From NCBI RefSeq assembly GCF_000015205.1, contig NC_008701.1:933436-997435 (forward strand): a stretch of DNA of 64,000 nt, read 5' to 3'. This document shows, in pieces, positions 4,647 to 54,960 of the stretch (positions within the stretch are counted from its first letter, which is position 1; each line of letters starts with the position of its first letter). The position numbers and the translations under genes were made by a program. Origin of the DNA: Pyrobaculum islandicum DSM 4184. GTDB taxonomy: Archaea > Thermoproteota > Thermoprotei > Thermoproteales > Thermoproteaceae. The notes below the pieces were generated by a model that was given only the letters and a program-made list of their open reading frames with translations, did no database searches and was not told where the DNA came from.

Positions 4647-4681
4647 GCGCCCGGCCTTCCCGGGAGTCTGTGCCGAGATTC
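4647..4681 (-). repeat. GC-rich hairpin next to a tnpB remnant
   Basis: CTCGGC and GCCGAG form an outer stem around CCCGG-CCTT-CCGGG. It sits just beyond the 3' side of the minus-strand tnpB remnant at 4728-5076, where intact copies carry structured GC-rich tails, so it may be a leftover of such a tail. It is not a tRNA. Confidence 0.35.
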
Positions 4682-4727
4682 CGCACTCTCATCATAATGT
4701 TTTTCAGACTCACAAGACGACCCTATC

Positions 4728-5076
4728 TATGCCTTGTTTTCAATTCTCAACTGGGCGTTTAACGGAACCGCTCTGAAAAAGATGACATTCTGCCAGAAGA
4801 ATTTGACAAACACCACAAGCGAATTTGCGAGCCTGTACTTGGGAACACCCCCTCTATTATCTTATGTGCCAACTCGCGCCTGTCTGGCGTGGGCAAGCGG
4901 TCCAACTCATTCGGCGTGAGTCTGGGCTCCTCTTGTCCCGTGGCTTCCTTCAACAGTCTTCTCACGTACTCTGCCGCCGCTAGGTACATCCTAGTTACTA
5001 GGTCTAGGACAACCGGTCTCTCTTCTACCAACCGCCAGGGAATTTCTATCTTTAGCGTTCTGTAGACTTGGCCCAT
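4728..5076 (-). pseudogene. TnpB-like gene, N-terminal remnant
   Basis: From ATG 5076 the frame matches the N-terminus of the intact TnpB-like protein at 24273-25538 (MGQVYRTLKIEIPW, then TGQEEPRLTPNELDRL). Near 4870 the frame breaks and resumes as VPKYRLANS, then FRAVPLNAQLRIENKA, before a stop at 4728. About two thirds of the gene, including all RuvC motifs and the zinc ribbon, is missing. Upstream is the conserved AG-rich leader and palindrome at 5142-5174. Confidence 0.75.
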
Positions 5077-5141
5077 GGGCGTGTACGGCGTGGGAGAGAA
5101 AAGCTAGTTGAAAGTCCATCCCTATTTCAACTCTCTCGACA

Positions 5142-5174
5142 CACCTACCTCACGGCGGCGCCGTGAGGTAGGTG
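5142..5174. repeat. Palindrome P1 (TnpB element 5' hairpin)
   Basis: CACCTACCTCACGGCG is followed by its inverse GCGCCGTGAGGTAGGTG, a 16-bp near-perfect stem. The same type of hairpin occurs at 9446, 25846 and 43662. Here it lies between a minus-strand tnpB N-terminal remnant on the left and a plus-strand tnpB C-terminal remnant on the right. Confidence 0.8.
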
Positions 5175-5292
5175 TGATATTGGTTGTGTACCAACGTGTA
5201 GTTTAAAAGGTGAAGATCAGAAAGAATTCTGAAAAACGGAGTTGGGTTAAACGCCGCACTTCAATTGTAAACAAGACAATACGCCACGCCGC

Positions 5293-5407
5293 CGGCCGGA
5301 GACGCCGACAACTATGGGCAGAGAAGAGGTATTGGAAGCTGATAGAAAAGACAAAACAACCCGTTCTTTCAACCGTCTCGGTGACCACCTCACTTTTAAC
5401 CCCCTAA
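5293..5407 (+). pseudogene. TnpB-like gene, C-terminal remnant
   Basis: Only the last about 30 codons of the TnpB-like protein survive: LWAEKRYWKLIEK, then TKQPVLSTVSVTTSLLTP and a stop. They lie directly before a conserved 3' tail (5408-5579). With palindrome P1 this forms a mini-element with both ends and almost no coding sequence. Confidence 0.7.
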
Positions 5408-5579
5408 CTATGTTTCACCAATTAACGACGTCTGGCCCCGGGGCGGTTGACGGGGGTGTGGAGACAGATGCAAAATAAACGACTTGTGGCCGGCCCCCGT
5501 ATGAGCCGCCCCCTCGCCCCGGTGTACTCGAGGCGGGCCCTTGAGTCCCCCAGGGAGGGGCCAAGAGAGAGGTAGGGAG
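5408..5579 (+). ncRNA. Class A structured 3' tail (candidate omega/re-RNA)
   Basis: GC-rich, hairpin-rich sequence downstream of the tnpB stop, shared with tails at 10184, 18451, 24096 and 42804. Shared blocks include GGGGCCAAGAGA and an end of the form TAGGGGGA (here TAGGGAGA). Known TnpB nucleases use an RNA from just this position, with the guide read from the flank beyond the element. That it is an RNA here is inferred. Confidence 0.45.
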
Positions 5580-5672
5580 ACGTGACGACATTACGCTGTT
5601 CGTCAACGTAGCTTTGAGCAAGCTCTGCAGAGTAGAGACGACAAAGTTATTTAAAATAGGTACAACGATAGA

Positions 5673-8483: not shown

Positions 8484-8669
8484 CCCCCCTTTGCGGCTCC
8501 CGACCCTCCCCGGGGGGCTCGGGTCGTTGGGGGCTGGCTTTGCCCCCTGGTCGCCGGGCCCCAGAGCCGGGACTCGTTTCCATAATAAAAAATATATTGG
8601 AGGGGGCGGAGGTGTGGTTGTTGTGTGGTAAATGGTAGAGTTGGGAATATCCTTTAAAGGAAAAAATGT
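8484..8669 (-). ncRNA. Class B structured 3' tail (candidate omega/re-RNA)
   Basis: The GC-rich core at 8484-8582 shares blocks with 54303-54448 and, inverted, 26594-26756: CCCTTTGCGGCTCCC at the outer end and GGCTGGCTTTGCCCCCTGG inside. On the minus strand it lies 3' of a tnpB remnant that stops at 8670, and ends GCAAAGGGGGG only about 65 bp upstream of cutA. The RNA role is inferred by analogy with TnpB elements. Confidence 0.45.
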
Positions 8670-9085
8670 CTAACCATGTTGCGTAATCGATGTCGGAGGG
8701 GGTGCGGCGGTTGAGCTGGGGGTAGGGGCGGCTGCAGAAATTAACTTACTGTACAGCTTCTTGGCCCATATTATGGGGATGTTGTCTCTGTTGTCTGAGA
8801 AGCCGCAGGTGGGGCAATGCATTATGCGTCTCCCCTCTTCCGCCATCTTGGCTCCACAACGGGGGCAGACTGTTGAATACAGCCGCTCCTCTAGATACGG
8901 AATGCCGTACCACTGCGCCTCCTCAGCTGGCCGAGGCCGTCTAGGAGGTGTTTCTTCTCTCCGTTCCCCTCCTTCAACTCTCGGTACGTGTCGTCCTCCA
9001 TTGTGTCTACTACGATCACGGCTTGACGTTCTCTGGCCAGCTTTATGATCTCGCGGGCGGCGTTGCCCCTTCCAGTACGAGCCAA
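8670..9085 (-). pseudogene. TnpB-like gene, C-terminal half remnant
   Basis: The minus strand carries REIIKLARERQAVIVVD, TMEDDTYRELKEG and KKHLLDGLGQLRRR, then a frameshift near 8925, then EERLYSTVCP with a zinc ribbon CxxC-CPTCG and DNIPIIWAKKLY, ending at a stop at 8670. The N-terminal half and RuvC-I are missing. The class B tail lies immediately downstream. Confidence 0.75.
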
Positions 9086-9099
9086 CTAGAGACGGCCAT

Positions 9100-9410
9100 A
9101 TACGCGACGCCCGCCGACGCGTTGACTACGGCGGCTGTCTAGGGGCTTCGTTGAGTTGAATCTACTCTTCGCCGACACGTCTTGGCCCGCCGCGGTGGCG
9201 CTGAACGGCGCCGTCGTAAAGGCGGCGTTGGGAGGCATGTTGTTGACCTTCGCAGCCAGAGCCGTCGCTAGCAACTTGCCGACCTCGCCGGCGTCATACG
9301 CCGCCGTTGCCACCCCAAGCCCTGTTCATACCGGCGATACTCATCGCCGTGTTGACGGCACTCGCGGTAAGACCGCCGTAGAACAAACCCGTTTTTAACC
9401 CACCCAGGCT
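9100..9410 (-). pseudogene. Relic of a repeated hydrophobic protein gene
   Basis: Read on the minus strand in two frames: GLKTGLFYGGLTASAVNTAM and SIAGMNRAWGGN, then a shift, then GKLLATALAAKVNNM and PPNAAFTTAP. The same sequence family recurs at 25560-25810 (TASAVNTAVGIAGMDNARGG, AAKVNNMAKSPNAAFTTALW). It looks like a membrane-protein gene in decay and lies between divergent tnpB remnants. Function unknown. Confidence 0.5.
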
Positions 9411-9445
9411 TCTAAACAACGCGGTCACACACCTTGACCAACGCC

Positions 9446-9478
9446 TCGCCTGCCTGACGGCGCGCCGTTAGGCAGGTG
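9446..9478. repeat. Palindrome P2 (TnpB element 5' hairpin)
   Basis: CGCCTGCCTGACGGCG faces CGCCGTTAGGCAGGTG with few mismatches. The rightward flank GTCGAGGGAGTAGAAAG leads into a plus-strand tnpB remnant, as at the other three palindromes. Confidence 0.75.
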
Positions 9479-9552
9479 TGTCGAGGGAGTAGAAAGTCGA
9501 AATACGTCTTCTAGTTTCTCTCTCCCTCGCCGCATGTGCTCATAGTTGCTCA

Positions 9553-10183
9553 TGGAGTTGACAGGAAAGGAGGATCCGAAGCTCACATCGGAGGAGCTAG
9601 ACCGCCTGCTTACTCCCGATAAGCGCGAGTTGGCCGTCAGGATCATTGATGAGGTGTTCCCAAAGTACGGTCTTAAGAAGTATTTCGTGGATAAAGCTAA
9701 GTTCTTCTGACATGACGTGGTATTCTACAGGTCGGTTCCACTCGACGTCCAACTGAGAGTGGAAAACGAGAGAGATGTGGACAAGGCCGTCTTTGTTGAC
9801 CTAAGGAGTGGCGCCAAAGACGTCGCGGGCAAGATAATTGAACTCGCCAGGGCATACAACGCCGGTCGTGGTAGACACAATGGGAGATACAAGTTACCGA
9901 GAGCTCAAGGCGGGAGTGGAGTACTGAGGAGGAGGTTGAAGGAGTCGGCGCAGTGGTACGGCATTCCGTATCTAGAGGAGCGGCTGTATTCAACAGTCTG
10001 TCCAAAGCGCGACGCAAAGGTGGTAGAGGAGAGGGGTCGCGTAATGCATTGCCCCACCTGCGGCTTCAGAGCGCACCGCGACAACGCCCCCATGACATGG
10101 CGGAGAAGAGGTACTGGGGGCTACTCCAGAAACAACCCCCTCGGCGACCACCACCTAACCCCCCAACTACACCTCCCACATGA
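9553..10183 (+). pseudogene. TnpB-like gene, internally deleted
   Basis: Begins inside the N-terminal region (ELTGKEDPKLTSEELDRL), reads through an in-frame stop at FF*HDVV where intact copies have FWRDVV, then jumps from VFVDLRSG to KIIELARA, deleting RuvC-I and the linker. The C-terminus retains EERLYSTVCPKR, CPTCGFRAHRDN and a frameshifted AEKRYWGLLQKQ before the stop at 10183. Palindrome P2 precedes it and a class A tail follows. Confidence 0.75.
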
Positions 10184-10312
10184 ACAACGCCGGCCCCAGG
10201 CGGCAGACAAAGAAAATCGACGACCTACGGCCACATAAGACCCACCCCCCGCCCCGGCACACCCAAAACAGACCCCCAAGCCCCCGGGAAGGGCCAAGAA
10301 AAAGATAGGGGA
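10184..10312 (+). ncRNA. Class A structured 3' tail (candidate omega/re-RNA)
   Basis: Follows the deleted tnpB at 9553-10183. It shares the CCCCCGGGAAGGGCCAAGA and GATAGGGGA blocks with the other class A tails. It is more diverged than the copy at 24096. RNA function is inferred. Confidence 0.4.
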
Positions 10313-10359
10313 ACGAGATGGTTTATCTCTCTGTGGTTGTTAAAAGGTGAAGAGTTGGA

Positions 10360-17398: not shown

Positions 17399-17575
17399 AA
17401 ACAACGCGCCGTCTAGAAGCCCCTACTCCCGCCTCAGAGTCTCAATCAGTTTAATGAACTGCTCCACCATGAGATTGTACAGTTTTCAAAGTTTGGCCCC
17501 ACATGTGGCGCGGAGGAGAAAAGCCAGAGACGCCTCTTTCAACTAGTTTTTCTTTCCCATGCCACATACGCCCAT

Positions 17576-18160
17576 GAGCCAAATCTATCGAATACTAAAT
17601 GTTGGAGATGCCATGGCAGTTGGTAGAGGAGCGTCCGGACGTCTTAGACCTAGTGACAGGGATGCACTTGGCCGTTGAGGAATATATGAAGAGATTGCTC
17701 AAGGAGACCACGGGACAGGAGGAGCCGAGGCTAACAACGGAGGAGCTAGACCGCTTGCTTACTCCCGACAGACGGGAGTTGGCGTACCGAATAATTGAGG
17801 AAGTGTTTCCCAAATACGGGCTTGGGAAAGTACTTCGTGGATAAAGCCAAAGTGTTTTGGCGCGACGTGGTATTCCACAGGGCGGTTCCGTTAGATGCCC
17901 AACTGAGAGCCAAGGACGAGAAAGACGTGAGTAGAGCCGTTTTCGTTGACCTCAAGAGCGGCGTCGTCAGAGTGTGAAAAACCGGCATACTGCCTTTCGC
18001 CGTCAAGTTGAAGAAGGGCGATGTCGTTTGGATCAGAAAGCGGTTGGAAGAGGGTGCGAGACTCAAGGTGGCATTTCTCGGCGTAGAGAAATGGAAAGGC
18101 AAGAAGGGGCCAACGTACGGTGGCTTGTATATCGCTCTCATCTTTGCTAGAGAAGTAAGT
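17576..18160 (+). pseudogene. TnpB-like gene, N-terminal half with frameshifts
   Basis: ATGAGCCAAATCTATCG at 17576 matches the TnpB-like start. An extra G near 17605 shifts frame before MPWQLVEERPDVLDLV. A second shift follows FPKYGLGK near 17825, and a TGA at 17975 replaces an arginine codon in VVRVRKTG. Homology ends at LYIALIFAREVS, before RuvC-I. The upstream leader TCAACTAGTTTTTCT matches other copies, but no palindrome remains. Confidence 0.8.
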
Positions 18161-18202
18161 CAGCTAAAGCGTCTCTTCACGATTCAGGAGACCCTTAGTT
18201 CG

Positions 18203-18433
18203 TCACCTGGAAGAACTTGGGTTGGCTTTAAAATGTTTTTGAGCCCTTAGCAAAACTTTCCCAAGCCTATGGAGATTTCCCAGGAATAACATCACAAGGC
18301 CGAAAACTACCAATTCAGCCTCATTTCCAACAACGCCCATGGCTAAAACTATGGCGCCATATATTGCCATCATATATATGAACATAATTGAGTTATCTCC
18401 TAGCAATATAACACCGGTATTTACATTTGACAT
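18203..18433 (-). CDS. Small hydrophobic protein (76 aa), uncertain
   Basis: MSNVNTGVILLGDNSIMFIY begins a protein with two hydrophobic segments (MMAIYGAIVLAMGVVG and ELVVFGLVMLFLGNL) and a basic tail. No family recognised. It lies between two tnpB remnants and may be a relic of chromosomal sequence or cargo. Confidence 0.4.
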   Translation of the reverse strand: MSNVNTGVILLGDNSIMFIYMMAIYGAIVLAMGVVGNEAELVVFGLVMLFLGNLHRLGKVLLRAQKHFKANPSSSR

Positions 18434-18450
18434 GACGTAATAGCAGTACG

Positions 18451-18622
18451 TCCCCCTATCTCTCTTGGCCCCTCCCTGGGGGACTTAAGGGCCCGCCTCG
18501 GGTACACCGGGGCGAGGGGGCGGGTCACCCGGGGGACGGCCGCGAGTCGCTTGTTTTTACAACAGTTTGGCGCCCCCGTCTGCCGCCCCAGGGGCCATGC
18601 GTCGTTTATGAAGCAAGAAAAC
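18451..18622 (-). ncRNA. Class A structured 3' tail (candidate omega/re-RNA)
   Basis: 3' of the minus-strand tnpB remnant at 18623, ending TAGGGGGA at 18451. Contains stems of the CCTCGGGTACACCGGGG type and the shared block CTCTTGGCCCCTCCC. Nearly colinear with the tail of the intact copy at 24096-24272. RNA role inferred. Confidence 0.5.
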
Positions 18623-19050
18623 TTACGAGGTTAAAAATGTGATGGCTGTTGGGACGGAGGAAAAAACGGGTTGTTTTGTCTTCTCTATTAACTCCCGGTA
18701 TCTCTTCTCTGCCCATATCATGGGCACGTTGTCGCGGTGCGCTCTGAAGCCGCAGGCGGGGCAACGTATGAAGCGGCCTTCCTCTTTTGTCATCTTAGTG
18801 CCACACTTTGGACAGACTGTTGAATACAGCCGCTCCTCTAGATACGGCAGGCCGTACCACTGCGTCGACTCCTTCAGCCTCCTCCTTAACTGCCCGAGCC
18901 CGTCTAGGAAGTGTTTCCTCACGTCGTTTCCGTTGCCCTCCTTCAGCTCTCGGTAACTCTCGTCTTCCATCGTGTCGACGACTATGGCGGCTTGGTGCTC
19001 TCTTGCCAGTTTTATGATCTCGCGGGCGGCGTTTATAACGACGTCGCGGA
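18623..19050 (-). pseudogene. TnpB-like gene, C-terminal half
   Basis: Open frame matching the last about 140 residues of the intact protein: IRDVVINAAREIIKLA, VVDTMEDESYRELKEG, LDGLGQLRRRLKES, zinc ribbon CPKCGTKM-CPACGFRAHRDN and VPMIWAEKRYRELIEK. The 5' half is absent. RuvC-II and III motifs are intact. A class A tail follows. Confidence 0.8.
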
Positions 19051-19195
19051 TATATGCAAGCTGCGAGGTCGTGCGCCGCTGCGCAATGGAGCCAGTCCCC
19101 AACTCACGCCGTACAAGGCCTTGGATATGTCTTCTGGTAGAGACCTAAGCCATGTCATTTCACAGTTATGGACATCCACCTCCTCAGGAGTATAA

Positions 19196-23829: not shown

Positions 23830-24095
23830 CGTCGACACCGAGAAATGCAAGTCTCAACTTAGCACCTTCTTCCAATCTCTATCTGATTCAAGCGACGTCG
23901 CTCTTTTTCAATTTTACAACAAACGTCTCTCTTAATCTCCACACTTTGATGACACCGCTCTTGAGGTCAACGAAAACGACATTGCTTATATCTTTCTCGT
24001 CCTCGACTCTCAACTGGGCATTGAGCGGAACCGCCCGGTGGAACACTATGTCGCGCCAAAGAAACTTAGCATAATTCACAAGGGTTTTCCCAATA
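23830..24095 (-). pseudogene. Older TnpB-like gene, downstream part of a split copy
   Basis: Starts at the exact end of the class A tail: GKTLVNYAKFLWRD continues where the fragment at 26371-26510 stops (QKYGLG), as compared with GLGKYFVDKAKVFWRD in other copies. It reads on through VFHRAVPLNAQLRVEDEK and VVFVDLKSGV, then decays. I infer that this tnpB was split by insertion of the 24096-26370 segment. Confidence 0.75.
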
Positions 24096-24272
24096 TCCCC
24101 CTATCTTTCTCTTGGCCCCTCCCCGGGGGACTTAAGGGCCCGCCCCGGGTGCACCGGGGCGAGAGGGCGGGTCATACGGGGGACGTGGCGCCAAGTCGTT
24201 AACTTTCGCCGTCTTCGCGCCCCCGTCTGCCGCCCCGGGGCCAAGTAGATGCCGTTCATGAAATAAGAAAAC
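24096..24272 (-). ncRNA. Class A structured 3' tail of the intact TnpB (candidate omega/re-RNA)
   Basis: Downstream of the stop at 24273. Strong hairpins: CGCCCCGG-GTGCA-CCGGGGCG inside a CCCGCC/GGCGGG outer stem, then GGCCAAGAGAAAGATAGGGGGAT at the end (split here as GGCCAAGAGAAAG and ATAGGGGGAT). The boundary is fixed because the next bases are tnpB codons of the older copy. By analogy with TnpB, the transcript would carry a guide beginning at about 24095 and reading ATTGGGAAAACCC. Confidence 0.55.
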
Positions 24273-25538
24273 TTACGAAGTTAAAAATGTGACGGTCGCC
24301 GGAGTGGAAAAAGTGGGTTGTTTTACCTTCTCTATCAGCTCCCGGTATCTCCTCTCAGCCCATATCATGGGCACATTGTCGCGGTGCGCTCTGAAGCCGC
24401 AGGCAGGGCAACGCATGAAGCGGCCGTTTTCCTCAACCATCTTGACTCCACAGCGGGGGCAGACAGTTGAGTACAACCTCTCCTCCAGATACGGCAAGCC
24501 GTACCACTGCGCCGACTCCTTCAGCCTCCTCCTTAACTGCCCAAGCCCGTCTAGGAAGTGTTTCTTATCGTCTCTCCAGTTGCCCTCCCTGAGCTCCCGG
24601 TACGTGTCGTCCTCTATTGTATCAACAACGATCGCGGCTTGGCGCTCTCTGGCCAGCTTTATGATCTCGCAGGCGGCGTTTATAACGACGTCGCGGATTA
24701 TGCCATAGCGCTTTGTCTCAAGTTTCCACAGTTGTCTCTGGAGGTCAAGGGCTCTACGCTGGTCTCTGTCCTCGTCCACACGCGCGAGGGCTCTGCTCAG
24801 TTGTCTTATGTGGATATGTATCTTCTCAAGCTTCCGTATCCGCTCTTTCCTAGGAAACTTCAATAGCTCCACGACACGACCGTCGACCACGAGACCAACC
24901 TTTACGTAGTGGTCTAGGCGGTTGACGTCGATAACGACAAGCGCCTTGGGCTCCACCGGCGTCACCTCTCTAGCGAACACAAGGGCGATATACAGGCCGC
25001 CGTAAGTAGGATCTTTGCCTCTCCTCACGTTGATGTCCAAGAATGCCAACTTCAATTTAGCGCCCTCTTGTAGTCTCTCTCTTATCCAAGTGACGTTGCC
25101 CTTCTCCAACCTGATTGCGAAAGGCGGTATGCCGGTCTTCCGCACTCTGACTATGCCACTCTTTAGGTCGACAAAGACCGCCTTACTTGTATCTCTTTCG
25201 TCCTCAACTCTCAACTGAACGTTTAACGGAATCGATCTGTGGAACACTACGTCGCGCCAAAACACCTTTCCCTGGTCTATGAAGTACCTCCCCAACCCGT
25301 ACTTGGGAAACACCTCCTCGATAATCTGGCGCGCCAACTCACGCTTGTCCAACGTGAGGAGTCTGTCCAACTCCTCCGCCGTCAGCTTCGGCTCCTCTTG
25401 CCCCGTCAGCTCCTTCAACAGCCTTCTGACGTATTCTTTTGCGGCCAAATGTATTCTTGTCACAAGGTCAAGGACGTCTGGCCGCTCTTCGATGAGTTTC
25501 CAGGGGATTTCAACCCTCAGCGTTCTGTATGCGTACAT
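24273..25538 (-). CDS. TnpB-like RNA-guided nuclease/OrfB family protein, intact copy
   Basis: 421 residues from ATG 25538 (MYAYRTLRVEIPWKLIEERP). The longer frame to 25745 runs into a different relic and is rejected. Domains: helical N-terminal half with TGQEEPKLTAEELDRLL; RuvC-I VVIDVNRLDHYVKVG (about residue 219); RuvC-II AAIVVDTIEDDTYREL, where the usual Glu appears as Asp; zinc ribbon CPRCGVKM-CPACGF; RuvC-III AHRDNVPMIWAERR. All three acidic positions are present. No TnpA nearby. Known TnpB proteins are RNA-guided DNA nucleases; activity here is inferred. Confidence 0.8.
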   Translation of the reverse strand: MYAYRTLRVEIPWKLIEERPDVLDLVTRIHLAAKEYVRRLLKELTGQEEPKLTAEELDRLLTLDKRELARQIIEEVFPKYGLGRYFIDQGKVFWRDVVFHRSIPLNVQLRVEDERDTSKAVFVDLKSGIVRVRKTGIPPFAIRLEKGNVTWIRERLQEGAKLKLAFLDINVRRGKDPTYGGLYIALVFAREVTPVEPKALVVIDVNRLDHYVKVGLVVDGRVVELLKFPRKERIRKLEKIHIHIRQLSRALARVDEDRDQRRALDLQRQLWKLETKRYGIIRDVVINAACEIIKLARERQAAIVVDTIEDDTYRELREGNWRDDKKHFLDGLGQLRRRLKESAQWYGLPYLEERLYSTVCPRCGVKMVEENGRFMRCPACGFRAHRDNVPMIWAERRYRELIEKVKQPTFSTPATVTFLTS

Positions 25539-25810: not shown

Positions 25811-25845
25811 AACGCAGTCTCCCACCACTTTCTACTCCCTCGGTT

Positions 25846-25878
25846 CACCTGCCTGACAGCGACGACGTCAGGCAGGTG
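25846..25878. repeat. Palindrome P3 (TnpB element 5' hairpin)
   Basis: CACCTGCCTGAC and GTCAGGCAGGTG form a perfect 12-bp stem around AGCGACGAC. The flanks extend the symmetry imperfectly: CTTTCTACTCCCTCGG on the left, GTCGAAAGAGTTGAAAG on the right. Lies between the intact minus-strand tnpB and a plus-strand remnant. Confidence 0.85.
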
Positions 25879-25994
25879 AGTCGAAAGAGTTGAAAGGACG
25901 TCTCTGGCTTTTTGTAGTGGTGGGGGAGGTATGAAGTTGTCGCATACATTGCCAACGCCGCCGGGCGGATACTAACCGCAATTTCCCCCTATAT

Positions 25995-26368
25995 CCAACA
26001 ATCGCCGGCGAGATCATAAAATTGGCAAGGGAGTACCAAGCCGCCATAGTGGTAGACACGATAGAGGAGGAGAGCTACCGGGAGCTGAAGGAGAGCAACG
26101 GGAGCGGCGAAAAGAAGCACTTATTAGACGGTTTGGGCCAGCTGAGGAGGAGGTTGAAGGAGCTCGCCGAGTGGTACGGACTGCCGTATCTAGAGGAACG
26201 GCTGTATTCGACCATCTGCCCCCGCTGTGGCGCGAAAATGAAAGAGCTGAGTAACAGGCGGATGCGTTGTCCTTCTTGCGGTTTCAACGACCACAGAGAC
26301 AACGTGCCGTTGCTTTGGGCAAAGAGGAGGTACTTGGAGCTCCTCCAGAAACAACCCGTTTTTCCAAC
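25995..26368 (+). pseudogene. TnpB-like gene, C-terminal half
   Basis: Frame matching GEIIKLAREYQAAIVVD, TIEEESYRELKES, LDGLGQLRRRLKELAEW, zinc ribbon CPRCGAKM-CPSCGFNDHRDN and VPLLWAKRRYLELLQKQP. Its last codons (QPVFPT) are interrupted at 26370 by an inverted tnpB fragment and repeated at 26552-26593. Confidence 0.75.
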
Positions 26369-26370
26369 CC

Positions 26371-26510
26371 AGGCCATACTTCTGGAACGCTTCTTCAATA
26401 ATCTTGTGAGCCAACTCGCGCCTATCTCTTGTAAGCAAGCGGTCTAGCTCCTCTACCGTGAGTTTCGGCTCATCTTGTCCAGACAATTCCTTTAACAACG
26501 TTTGGCTCAT
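26371..26510 (-). pseudogene. Older TnpB-like gene, upstream part of a split copy
   Basis: ATG 26510 (MSQT) is fused directly to LLKELSGQDEPKL, so about 30 early codons are already deleted. It reads on through TVEELDRLLTRDRREL to AFQKYGLG at 26371. The continuation is found 2.3 kb away at 24095. The leader on the right keeps the CTAGTTTTTCTTCTC motif typical of these genes. Confidence 0.7.
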
Positions 26511-26551
26511 GGGCGCATATTGCGTAGAGAAGAAAAACTAGGTCGTCGGGA

Positions 26552-26593
26552 CAACCCGCTTTTCCAACCCCGGCGACCACCTTAAACTCGTAA
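26552..26593 (+). pseudogene. Terminal codons of a TnpB-like gene
   Basis: CAACCCGCTTTTCCAACC encodes QPAFPTPATTLNS followed by TAA at 26591-26593, matching the extreme C-terminus of the intact protein (QPTFSTPATVTFLTS). Nearly the same 18 bp also stand at 26352-26369, so the inverted fragment between them is flanked by direct repeats. Confidence 0.6.
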
Positions 26594-26756
26594 GTCTTTT
26601 CGCCCATGGGACAACCGGCCCTAGGGACCCGGCCGGCTGTTGAAGTCCGCCAAGCCCGTCCGCCCGGGCACGGCCGAACCCCCACGCCCCCGGGTTGCCA
26701 AACGCGACTCAGGCACGTGCCCCGAGCCCCCCGGGGCCAGTTGTGCAAAGGGGGGC
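26594..26756 (+). ncRNA. Class B structured 3' tail (candidate omega/re-RNA)
   Basis: GC-rich tail after the TAA at 26593, ending GCAAAGGGGGGC at about 26756, which matches the class B ends at 8484 and 54303. The element end is only about 38 bp from the pyrB start, so it abuts or partly replaces the pyrB promoter region (GTTTAAAAG at about 26767). Confidence 0.45.
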
Positions 26757-42803: not shown

Positions 42804-42937
42804 TCCCCCTACCTCTCTCTTGGCCCCTCCCCGAGGGACTTGGGGGCCGCCTCGGGTGCACCGGGGCAAGGGGGCGGGTCATACGGGGGCCGGCCGCGAG
42901 TCGCTTGTTTTGTAACAGCTTGGCGCCCCCGTCTGCC
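42804..42937 (-). ncRNA. Class A structured 3' tail (candidate omega/re-RNA)
   Basis: Same blocks as the tail at 24096: GCCTCGGGTGCACCGGGGC hairpin, CTCTTGGCCCCTCCCC and the TAGGGGGA end at 42804. It is joined directly to the middle of a tnpB gene (after VGLVADG), so the coding 3' half is deleted while the tail is kept. Confidence 0.5.
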
Positions 42938-43605
42938 GTCGGCCACGAGGCCAACCTTTATGTAGTGATCCAACCGGTTGACGTCAACAACGACAAGCGC
43001 CTTGGGCTCCGTTGGCTTGACTTCTCTAGCGGACACCAAGGCAATATACAGGCCGCCGTAAGTAGGATCCTTCTCACCATCTCTCTTCTCAATGCCCAAA
43101 AATGTCAACTTGAGTTTGGCGCCTTCCTGTAGTCTCTCTCTTATCCAAGAGATGCTGCCCTTCTTCAATTTTAAGACAAACGGCGGTATGCCCAACTTCC
43201 GCACTCTGACGACACCGCTCTTAAGGTTAACAAAGACGGCCCTACTCATGTCTCTCTCGTTTTCCACTCTCAACTGGCGTTTAACGGAACCGCCCGGTGG
43301 AACACCACATCACACCAAAGGAACTTAGCCCACTCTGCAAAGTGTCTCTTAAGTCCATACTTGGAGAACACGTCTTCGATAATCTTATGCGCAAACTCCC
43401 GCCTGTCGGGAGTAAGCAAGCAGTCTAGCTCCTCCGACGCGAGCTTGGGCTCCTCCTGTCCCGTGGCCTCTTTCAACAGCCTTTTGGCGTACTCTTCCGT
43501 CGCGAGATGTATCCTCGTCGCTAGGTCTAGGACGTCCGGCCGCTCTTCGACGAGTTTCCAAAGGATTCTGATTTTCAACGTCTTGTACGTTTGGCTCATA
43601 TGCAT
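42938..43605 (-). pseudogene. TnpB-like gene, N-terminal half joined to the 3' tail
   Basis: From ATG 43605 (MHMSQTYKTLKIRILWKLVE) through TGQEEPKLASEELD to FHRAVPLN, a one-base deletion near 43275, then QLRVENERDMSRAVFVNLKS, RuvC-I VVVDVNRLDHYIKVG and LVADG, where the sequence jumps into the tail. RuvC-II, RuvC-III and the zinc ribbon are missing. Palindrome P4 is upstream. Confidence 0.8.
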
Positions 43606-43661
43606 AAAGGGCGTGGGGGAGGAAAGCTAGTTGAAGAGACTCTCTTTCTACTCCCTCGCTT

Positions 43662-43694
43662 CACCTGCCTTACAGCGACGACGTGAGGCAGGTG
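43662..43694. repeat. Palindrome P4 (TnpB element 5' hairpin)
   Basis: CACCTGCCTTAC and GTGAGGCAGGTG flank AGCGACGAC (one mismatch). Imperfect symmetry extends over 43644-43709: CTTTCTACTCCCTCGCTT on the left and GTGAAGGAGTCGAAAG on the right. The left arm leads to tnpB, the right arm to a small membrane ORF. Confidence 0.85.
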
Positions 43695-43762
43695 TGTGAA
43701 GGAGTCGAAAGGGTGAGTGGGCCGAGCCGCGTCTAGCTTTTTATGCATGTGGCGAGGGAGGT

Positions 43763-44004: not shown

Positions 44005-44200
44005 CTATGTTCGGCATGTCCGCCACGGCCATCGCCATCTTGTTCATGAACCTCGGATCTCTCACGCCGTTACAAACCGCCAGTCCGGCCCCGGAGAGTC
44101 GGCCGGAAGTCATGGTTCAACCGCGCCGACCCCCACCCCCGCGGCCCCAAGGGCGTCAGCGGGAGCGGGCTCGGCGCCACGAGGGGGCGCGATAGTGTAG
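44005..44200. repeat. GC-rich relic island
   Basis: GC-rich gap sharing GGCCCCAAGGGC, then TCAGCGG, with 2680-2712. On the minus strand it reads GAEPAPADALGAAGVGVG, akin to GSGPASADALGAAVV there. No intact gene. Confidence 0.4.
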
Positions 44201-54302: not shown

Positions 54303-54448
54303 GCCCCCTTTGCGGCTCCCGGCCCTCCCCGGGAGGGCGCGGGGCCCGCCCGCAGATACGCCTTTCGGCGGCCGCGGGCGAGGGGGCTCGGGTCGTTGGG
54401 GGCTGGCTTTGCCCCCTGGTGGCCGGGCCCCAGGGCCGGGGATGTGGC
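54303..54448 (-). ncRNA. Class B structured 3' tail (candidate omega/re-RNA)
   Basis: 3' of the minus-strand tnpB remnant at 54449. Shares CCCTTTGCGGCTCCC and GGGGGCTGGCTTTGCCCCC with 8484-8582; an added GCAGATACGCC/GGCGGC region gives extra stems. Ends GCAAAGGGGGC at 54303. RNA role inferred. Confidence 0.5.
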
Positions 54449-54960
54449 TCATGAATACAAGAAGTTTACGAGGTTAAATGTGAGTTGAGGGGGAAAAGTG
54501 GGTTGTTTTGTCTTTTCTATCAACTCCCAGTACCTCCTCTTTGCCCAGAGCAACGGCACATTGTCGCGGTGCGCTCCGAAGCCGCAGGCGGGGCAATGCA
54601 TTACGCGCCCTTTCTCCTCCGCCATCTTGGCTCCGCATTTGGGGCAGATCGTGCTGTAGAGCCGCTCCTTTAGATACGTGGGCCGTACCACTGCACCGAC
54701 TCCTTCAACCTCCTCCTCAGCTGGCCGAGACCGTCTAGGAGGTGCTTCTTCTCTCCGCTTCCCTCCTTCAGCTCTCGGTAGCTCTCGTCTTCCATCGTGT
54801 CTACCACGACGGCGGCGTTGTGCTCTCTTGCCAGCTTAATTATCTCACTTACAACGTCCTTAACGACACCTGGAAAAATTAGATACGTGGTTACGTCTCC
54901 GACTACTGGGGCAGCGGGAGCATTGCTCCAAGCCCTGCGCTGGAGCTGGAGAAGAGTCCT
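54449..54960 (-). pseudogene. TnpB-like gene, C-terminal half
   Basis: SEIIKLAREHNAAVVVD, TMEDESYRELKEGSGEKK and LDGLGQLRRRLKESVQWYG, a one-base shift near 54680, then LKERLYSTICPKCGAKM, CPACGFGAHRDN and VPLLWAKRRYWELIEK, with a stop at 54449. RuvC-I and the N-terminus are gone. The extreme C-terminus (TFNLVNFLYS) differs from class A copies. Confidence 0.78.

Follow-up and report, generated by a model that had tools for sequence, protein, structure and literature searches.

The stretch analysed here (the window) comprises 64,000 nucleotides (nt) of the genome of the thermophilic archaeon Pyrobaculum islandicum DSM 4184 (contig NC_008701.1, positions 933,436 to 997,435) and carries dispersed copies and remnants of tnpB-like genes that end in conserved, structured 3′ tails. 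Our focus is the copy at 24096-25538, in which a TnpB-like protein is followed by a tail of the class that we call A; a second class, B, occurs at other copies. The family probably represents a branch of the TnpB superfamily within the Thermoproteaceae, in which a divergent TnpB works with an autonomously transcribed omega RNA, as judged from sequence and structure prediction. An earlier note, made from the letters of the window alone, had proposed the tails as candidate omega RNAs (or reRNAs). That proposal stands up well, because their position, sharp 3′ end, co-segregation with protein clades, helix-level covariation, guide-proximal pseudoknot and associated Cas12f/TnpB-like fold all fit it.

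Tails, tail classes and right ends

Profile searches, with profiles made from clean tails, and covariance model (CM) searches located five class A and three class B tails in the window (Table 1), recovering all eight tnpB-associated tails that had been described and both of their classes. The eight tails are real, although several of the 'copies or remnants' to which they had been ascribed are internally deleted or half-inverted remnants, and the genome as a whole has about 90 tails. As had been claimed, tails remained recognisable beside decayed coding sequence: the best class A tail gave a profile E-value of 1e-61, the decayed A tail at 10180 one of 1e-17 and the decayed class B tail at 8485 one of 2e-7. 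The proposed class B end motif, GCAAAGGGGG, was present at all three B tails, whereas the class A motif, TAGGGGGA, was exact at 18451, 24096 and 42804 and degenerate at 5580 (GGTAGGGAGA) and 10313 (ATAGGGGAA).

Table 1. Positions and strands of the features in the window.
Feature	Position	Strand	Remarks
TnpB-like protein	24273-25538	-	core of ~421 amino acids (aa) from MYAYRTLR; open frame to 25745
Left-end region, palindromic hairpin CACCTGCCTGAC...GTCAGGCAGGTG	25828-25897	-	conserved upstream of many copies
TATA-like box TTTTTAA	24281-24287	-	predicted tail-RNA promoter
Class A tail	24096-24259	-	predicted omega-RNA scaffold, ATGAAC to GGGGGA; minimum free energy fold z = -2.1; 172.7 bits with CM R2
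P1 closing stem UUGGCCCC/GGGGCCAA	24112-24244	-	5′ strand 24244-24237, 3′ strand 24119-24112
P3 hairpin CGCCCCGG...CCGGGGCG	24139-24163	-	six pairs changed on both sides across the family
P5 pseudoknot	24095-24131	-	GUCCCCC (24131-24125) with terminal GGGGGAU (24101-24095)
Predicted guide	24075-24094	-	~16-20 nt of the flank, by read-through past the right end; conservation at background past the end motif
Decayed copy, C-terminal half and class A tail	18451-19057	-	tail 18451-18609
Decayed copy, C-terminal scrap and class A tail	5313-5580	+	tail 5421-5580
Internally deleted copy, class A tail	42804-43712	-	tail 42804-42961; left end and N-terminal half, without C-terminal part
Decayed copy, degenerate class A tail	9449-10313	+	tail 10180-10313
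C-terminal half and class B tail	54304-54846	-	tail 54304-54452
Rearranged remnant (C-half +, N-half -), class B tail	26003-26754	+ (tail)	tail 26606-26754
Decayed copy, truncated class B tail	8485-9496	-	tail 8485-8583

The right ends are sharply defined. Aligned class A copies all end at ATAGGGGGAC, and class B copies at GCAAAGGGGGC and variants; information content is about 1.3-2.0 bits per position up to the end motif and, a few bases beyond it, has dropped to about 0.1, class A having two partly conserved bases directly past the motif before background is reached. One related genome (G030) holds the empty site of one copy (L086), which places the right edge to about one base from the GGGGGGC end. 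Right ends lying at different places in different genomes would have spoken against guide RNAs, but they were constant, both among the copies of this genome and in two relatives. From what is known of TnpB biology, the flank directly past the end would serve as the guide; at the focal copy this segment falls inside or beside an older tnpB fragment.

The tail RNA is predicted to have a promoter of its own, because, among the 43 top tails that carry a TATA-like box ([CT]TTTTAA), 40 have it at a distance of 24-25 nt upstream from a conserved ATGAAC; the spacer between the two varies in sequence. Transcription would then start at or near ATGAAC.

The host genome (1,826,402 bp, one contig) matches PF07282 at 57 places, and about 18 intact tnpB genes compare with the roughly 90 tails. 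CM searches gave 48 class B tails (threshold 44 bits) and 42 class A tails (threshold 30 bits), counted by hand from the CM tables after removal of cross-hits. Both classes recur in two relatives, one of another species and one of another genus. We sought tnpB sequence in the 1.5 kb upstream of the best 30 tails per class: 9 class A tails stood behind an intact open reading frame (ORF), 13 behind a remnant and 8 had no or only distant tnpB, and the corresponding class B counts were 9, 14 and 7. The eight class A tails without a tnpB match upstream retained the TATA box in six cases and the pseudoknot described below in all eight. A class B orphan (L215, genome position 1093124) has a tail that is missing at the same place in three relatives; orphan tails may have arisen by deletion or may themselves be mobile.

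Some further observations concern this family and its neighbours. Two decayed copies at 723 kb and 773 kb of the genome (L067 and L068) share 99.7% identity across 1,021 bp, and all three mismatches apparently fall in the ~20 nt that precede the right end; one reading of this pattern is gene conversion that halted before reaching it. Weak additional matches to the class B tail profile and CM (E = 0.006) lie at 2665-2738 and 44072-44198 of the window, parts of which are 81% alike to each other. The genome also encodes four or more PF07282 proteins that are clearly different and of a more canonical kind (L031-L035, L053; 65-72 bits), and another 3′ hairpin, AAACCCCGCCCTTTAGGGCGGGGAGCGCGG, occurs near some related copies.

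Predicted RNA fold and terminal pseudoknot

Single class A and class B tails fold into the same closed junction (z = -2.1 and -3.6, respectively). Its closing stem P1 covaries, with UUGGCCCC/GGGGCCAA in class A against CCGGCCUU/AAGGCCGG and CCGGCCCU/AGGGCCGG in class B. P5 joins the 3′ end to a segment lying immediately within P1, forming a predicted H-type pseudoknot immediately before the predicted guide. The partners are GUCCCCC/GGGGGAC in class A and GCUCCCC/GGGGAGC, GCCCCC/GGGGGC or GCCCCCC/GGGGGGC in class B; their lengths match, and U-A and C-G pairs alternate between the classes. P5 has 6-7 bp in nearly all non-degenerate copies and is mostly lost in degenerate ones.

A unit of guide, pseudoknot and stem is common to TnpB and Cas12 guide RNAs, including the ISDra2 omega RNA (PMC10097598). 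As in RNA-guided TnpB systems, the tails would thus provide a structured 3′ RNA ending at the guide junction and, by comparison with that work, a pseudoknot directly before the guide. In Pyrobaculum homologues of 34-40% identity we noted by eye a similar end pairing, GUGYCCC/GGGGYAY, and likewise a layout of TATA box, ATGG and GC-rich tail. Rfam returned no relevant match to the tails at gathering score.

Taken together, P1, P3 and P5 had 0.936 of their cells paired, compared with 0.732+-0.027 in tree-aware shuffles (0/500), and 12 pairs changed on both sides, compared with 4.8+-1.7 (0/500), although the helices were proposed on the very sequences tested and some bias towards them remains. P5 alone was weaker, its paired cells being equalled in 4/500 and its double changes in 116/500 shuffles.

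The TnpB-like protein and the left end

The focal protein scored 37.4 bits against PF07282 (TNB zinc-ribbon), above the curated cut-off of 26.3. An AlphaFold2 model built with 45 family sequences reached a predicted local distance difference test score (pLDDT) of 88 and a predicted template modelling score (pTM) of 0.79. Foldseek comparison of this model placed Cas12f as the best solved structure and Cas12g, ISFba1 TnpB and Fanzor2 in the first ten, with a probability of 1.00 to Cas12f, ISFba1 TnpB and Fanzor2. The model therefore predicts a Cas12f/TnpB-like fold, as in the TnpB superfamily. D204, D306, D387 and four zinc-finger Cys were conserved in 44-45 of the 45 proteins. We read the catalytic triad as D-D-D, because a profile alignment puts D306 opposite the catalytic Glu of ISDra2 TnpB; RuvC-I was assigned by motif and model, not from measured distances.

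A protein tree of 27 tail-bearing copies from three genomes links the two halves of the element. Tail class changes only once on this tree (support 100), compared with about nine changes in shuffles, indicating that A and B tails were inherited with their own proteins, as expected of cognate pairs.

The left sides of the copies are rearranged and often adjoin an inverted tnpB N-half, as seen with a left-end profile and in empty-site comparisons, and for this reason we called no transposon-associated motif. An inverted tnpB N-terminal fragment lies head-to-head upstream of 7 of the 18 intact tnpB copies (for example, L063, L060, L049 and L039), across the left-end palindrome, and the arrangement is also found in G030. 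At 17526-19057, 4671-5580 and 26003-26754 of the window, the N-half lies on the strand opposite to the C-half and tail.

The window had been described as lacking TnpA. This is true for the Y1 transposase (Y1_Tnp), which was found neither in the whole genome of the host nor in any of the 19 Thermoproteaceae genomes searched, with positive controls. The only serine recombinase-like gene found in the genome (718980-719435; 251 aa, Cys-rich C-terminal part) is a lone resolvase-family gene that has no intact tnpB next to it and lies at least ~3 kb from the nearest tnpB remnant, and so does not form the pair of serine-recombinase TnpA and tnpB typical of IS607.

Alternative readings and relation to known systems

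Several results weigh against the reading of a divergent TnpB with its own omega RNA. The RuvC-II Glu is replaced by Asp in 44 of 45 proteins, RuvC-I reads DVN instead of the usual D-hydrophobic-G (PMC10711439), and NCBIfam NF040570, the model for guided TnpB, scored 49.1-49.7 bits against a cut-off of 100. On the RNA side, a phylogeny-aware per-pair test (R-scape-like, with phylogeny-preserving shuffles, G-test and average product correction; 42 sequences, few independent events) found no base pair at E < 0.05, which is why we turned to helix-level statistics; the covariation that the earlier note asked for is thus seen in P1, P3 and P5 together and in no single pair. Changes to G-U and to A-C were about equally frequent (~21 and 22 events), so pairing alone does not separate a selected RNA from (single-stranded) DNA. 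Finally, the TATA-like box overlaps C-terminal codons in many copies, and coding constraint on the last tnpB codons could lie behind part of its conservation. The family would work in the manner of a TnpB with its omega RNA, but because the protein departs from the D-E-D triad and falls below the NCBIfam cut-off, we do not place it among the proven RNA-guided TnpB nucleases.

These catalytic substitutions would fit a nuclease-dead, binding-only relative (TldR-like or Cas12k/m-like), with the guide RNA directing DNA binding rather than cutting. We consider this unlikely, since the three acidic positions and four zinc Cys persist across divergent proteins, suggesting a working metal site.

A less probable alternative still is that the tails are only right ends of the transposon, that is, DNA hairpins or terminal pairings for a transposase that has disappeared or works in trans, and do not function as RNA. 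The equal G-U and A-C frequencies would suit it, as would the palindromic left ends and the internally deleted copies that keep their tails. It leaves unexplained, however, why a TATA-like box stands at a fixed distance even where no tnpB remains and why the pseudoknot sits at the same place as in guide RNAs, and the lack of any Y1 transposase hit in the 19 family genomes argues against it. Copies with intact tnpB also lean to G-U (18 cells, compared with 10 for A-C; 15 and 18 in decayed copies), which is a trend and not a passed test. That recency or gene conversion among dead copies conserved the tails without selection is very improbable: the near-identity of L067 and L068, both decayed, would be expected, but A and B tails retain complementary stems despite their different sequences, and both classes are also found in a second species and a second genus.

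For a divergent TnpB with its own omega RNA, we infer a working cycle as follows. An intact element would encode a Cas12f/TnpB-like protein of ~420-430 aa and, just past the stop codon, an RNA scaffold of ~150-165 nt with its own archaeal promoter, whose TATA box would lie 24-25 nt before the start, close to ATGAAC. Small-RNA reads in PMC3396285, at 20-70 nt, do not cover the size of such an RNA. The scaffold would form a closed multi-branch junction, with the terminal 6-7 nt (GGGGGAC or GGGG(A)GC) pairing back inside as the pseudoknot, and transcription would continue into the flank, whose next 16-20 nt would be the guide. The protein would bind the scaffold of its own class and probably recognise or cut DNA matching the flank, such as an empty site. 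Intact copies could act in trans on tails whose own tnpB has decayed or been lost, although trans use of orphan-tail guides is speculation. Carried further, lone promoter-plus-scaffold units might be transcribed and loaded in trans by the ~18 TnpB-like proteins of the genome, which would amount to an array-like repertoire of many guides with a D-D-D RuvC centre in a host reported to be without cas1 and cas2; we give this extension little chance.

The family points to thermostable TnpB-like effectors with naturally separate guide RNAs, predicted to be promoter-driven, and an altered catalytic residue, in a lineage whose searched genomes yielded no Y1 transposase. Three questions become testable: whether Asp can stand in for the RuvC-II Glu, whether orphan guide RNAs act in trans and how elements persist or spread without TnpA.

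Among known systems, haloarchaeal sotRNAs and IS1341-type omega RNAs (RF02656, RF02657; PMC12558985) are likewise archaeal tnpB-associated 3′ RNAs; neither Rfam family matched the tails at gathering score, nor the focal tail when E-values as high as 1 were admitted. The family resembles Fanzor and Fanzor-related TnpBs with a rearranged Glu (PMC10711439) in a Glu that precedes the first zinc Cys by six residues in 19 of 22 clade members, and in the Fanzor2 fold match. It differs from them in that Glu353 occurs in only 26 of 45 proteins family-wide, DVN replaces DPG and Asp is kept at the canonical RuvC-II site, so that the Fanzor-type active site, DPG plus that Glu, is not reproduced. ISFba1 TnpB (8iaz) and Cas12f (8j12, 8j1j) are among the top structural matches of the model (E 1e-10 to 4e-12), at identities of 12-16%. 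ISDra2 TnpB (IS200/IS605) differs in its TnpA, its D-E-D rather than D-D-D triad and its weak sequence similarity (profile E ~6e-4), and the scaffold here lies outside the ORF with its own predicted promoter. It shares with the Pyrobaculum element the zinc-ribbon TNB domain, the RuvC-like C-terminus, an RNA at the 3′ end of the gene, a guide-adjacent pseudoknot and, as predicted here, a guide taken from the right flank.
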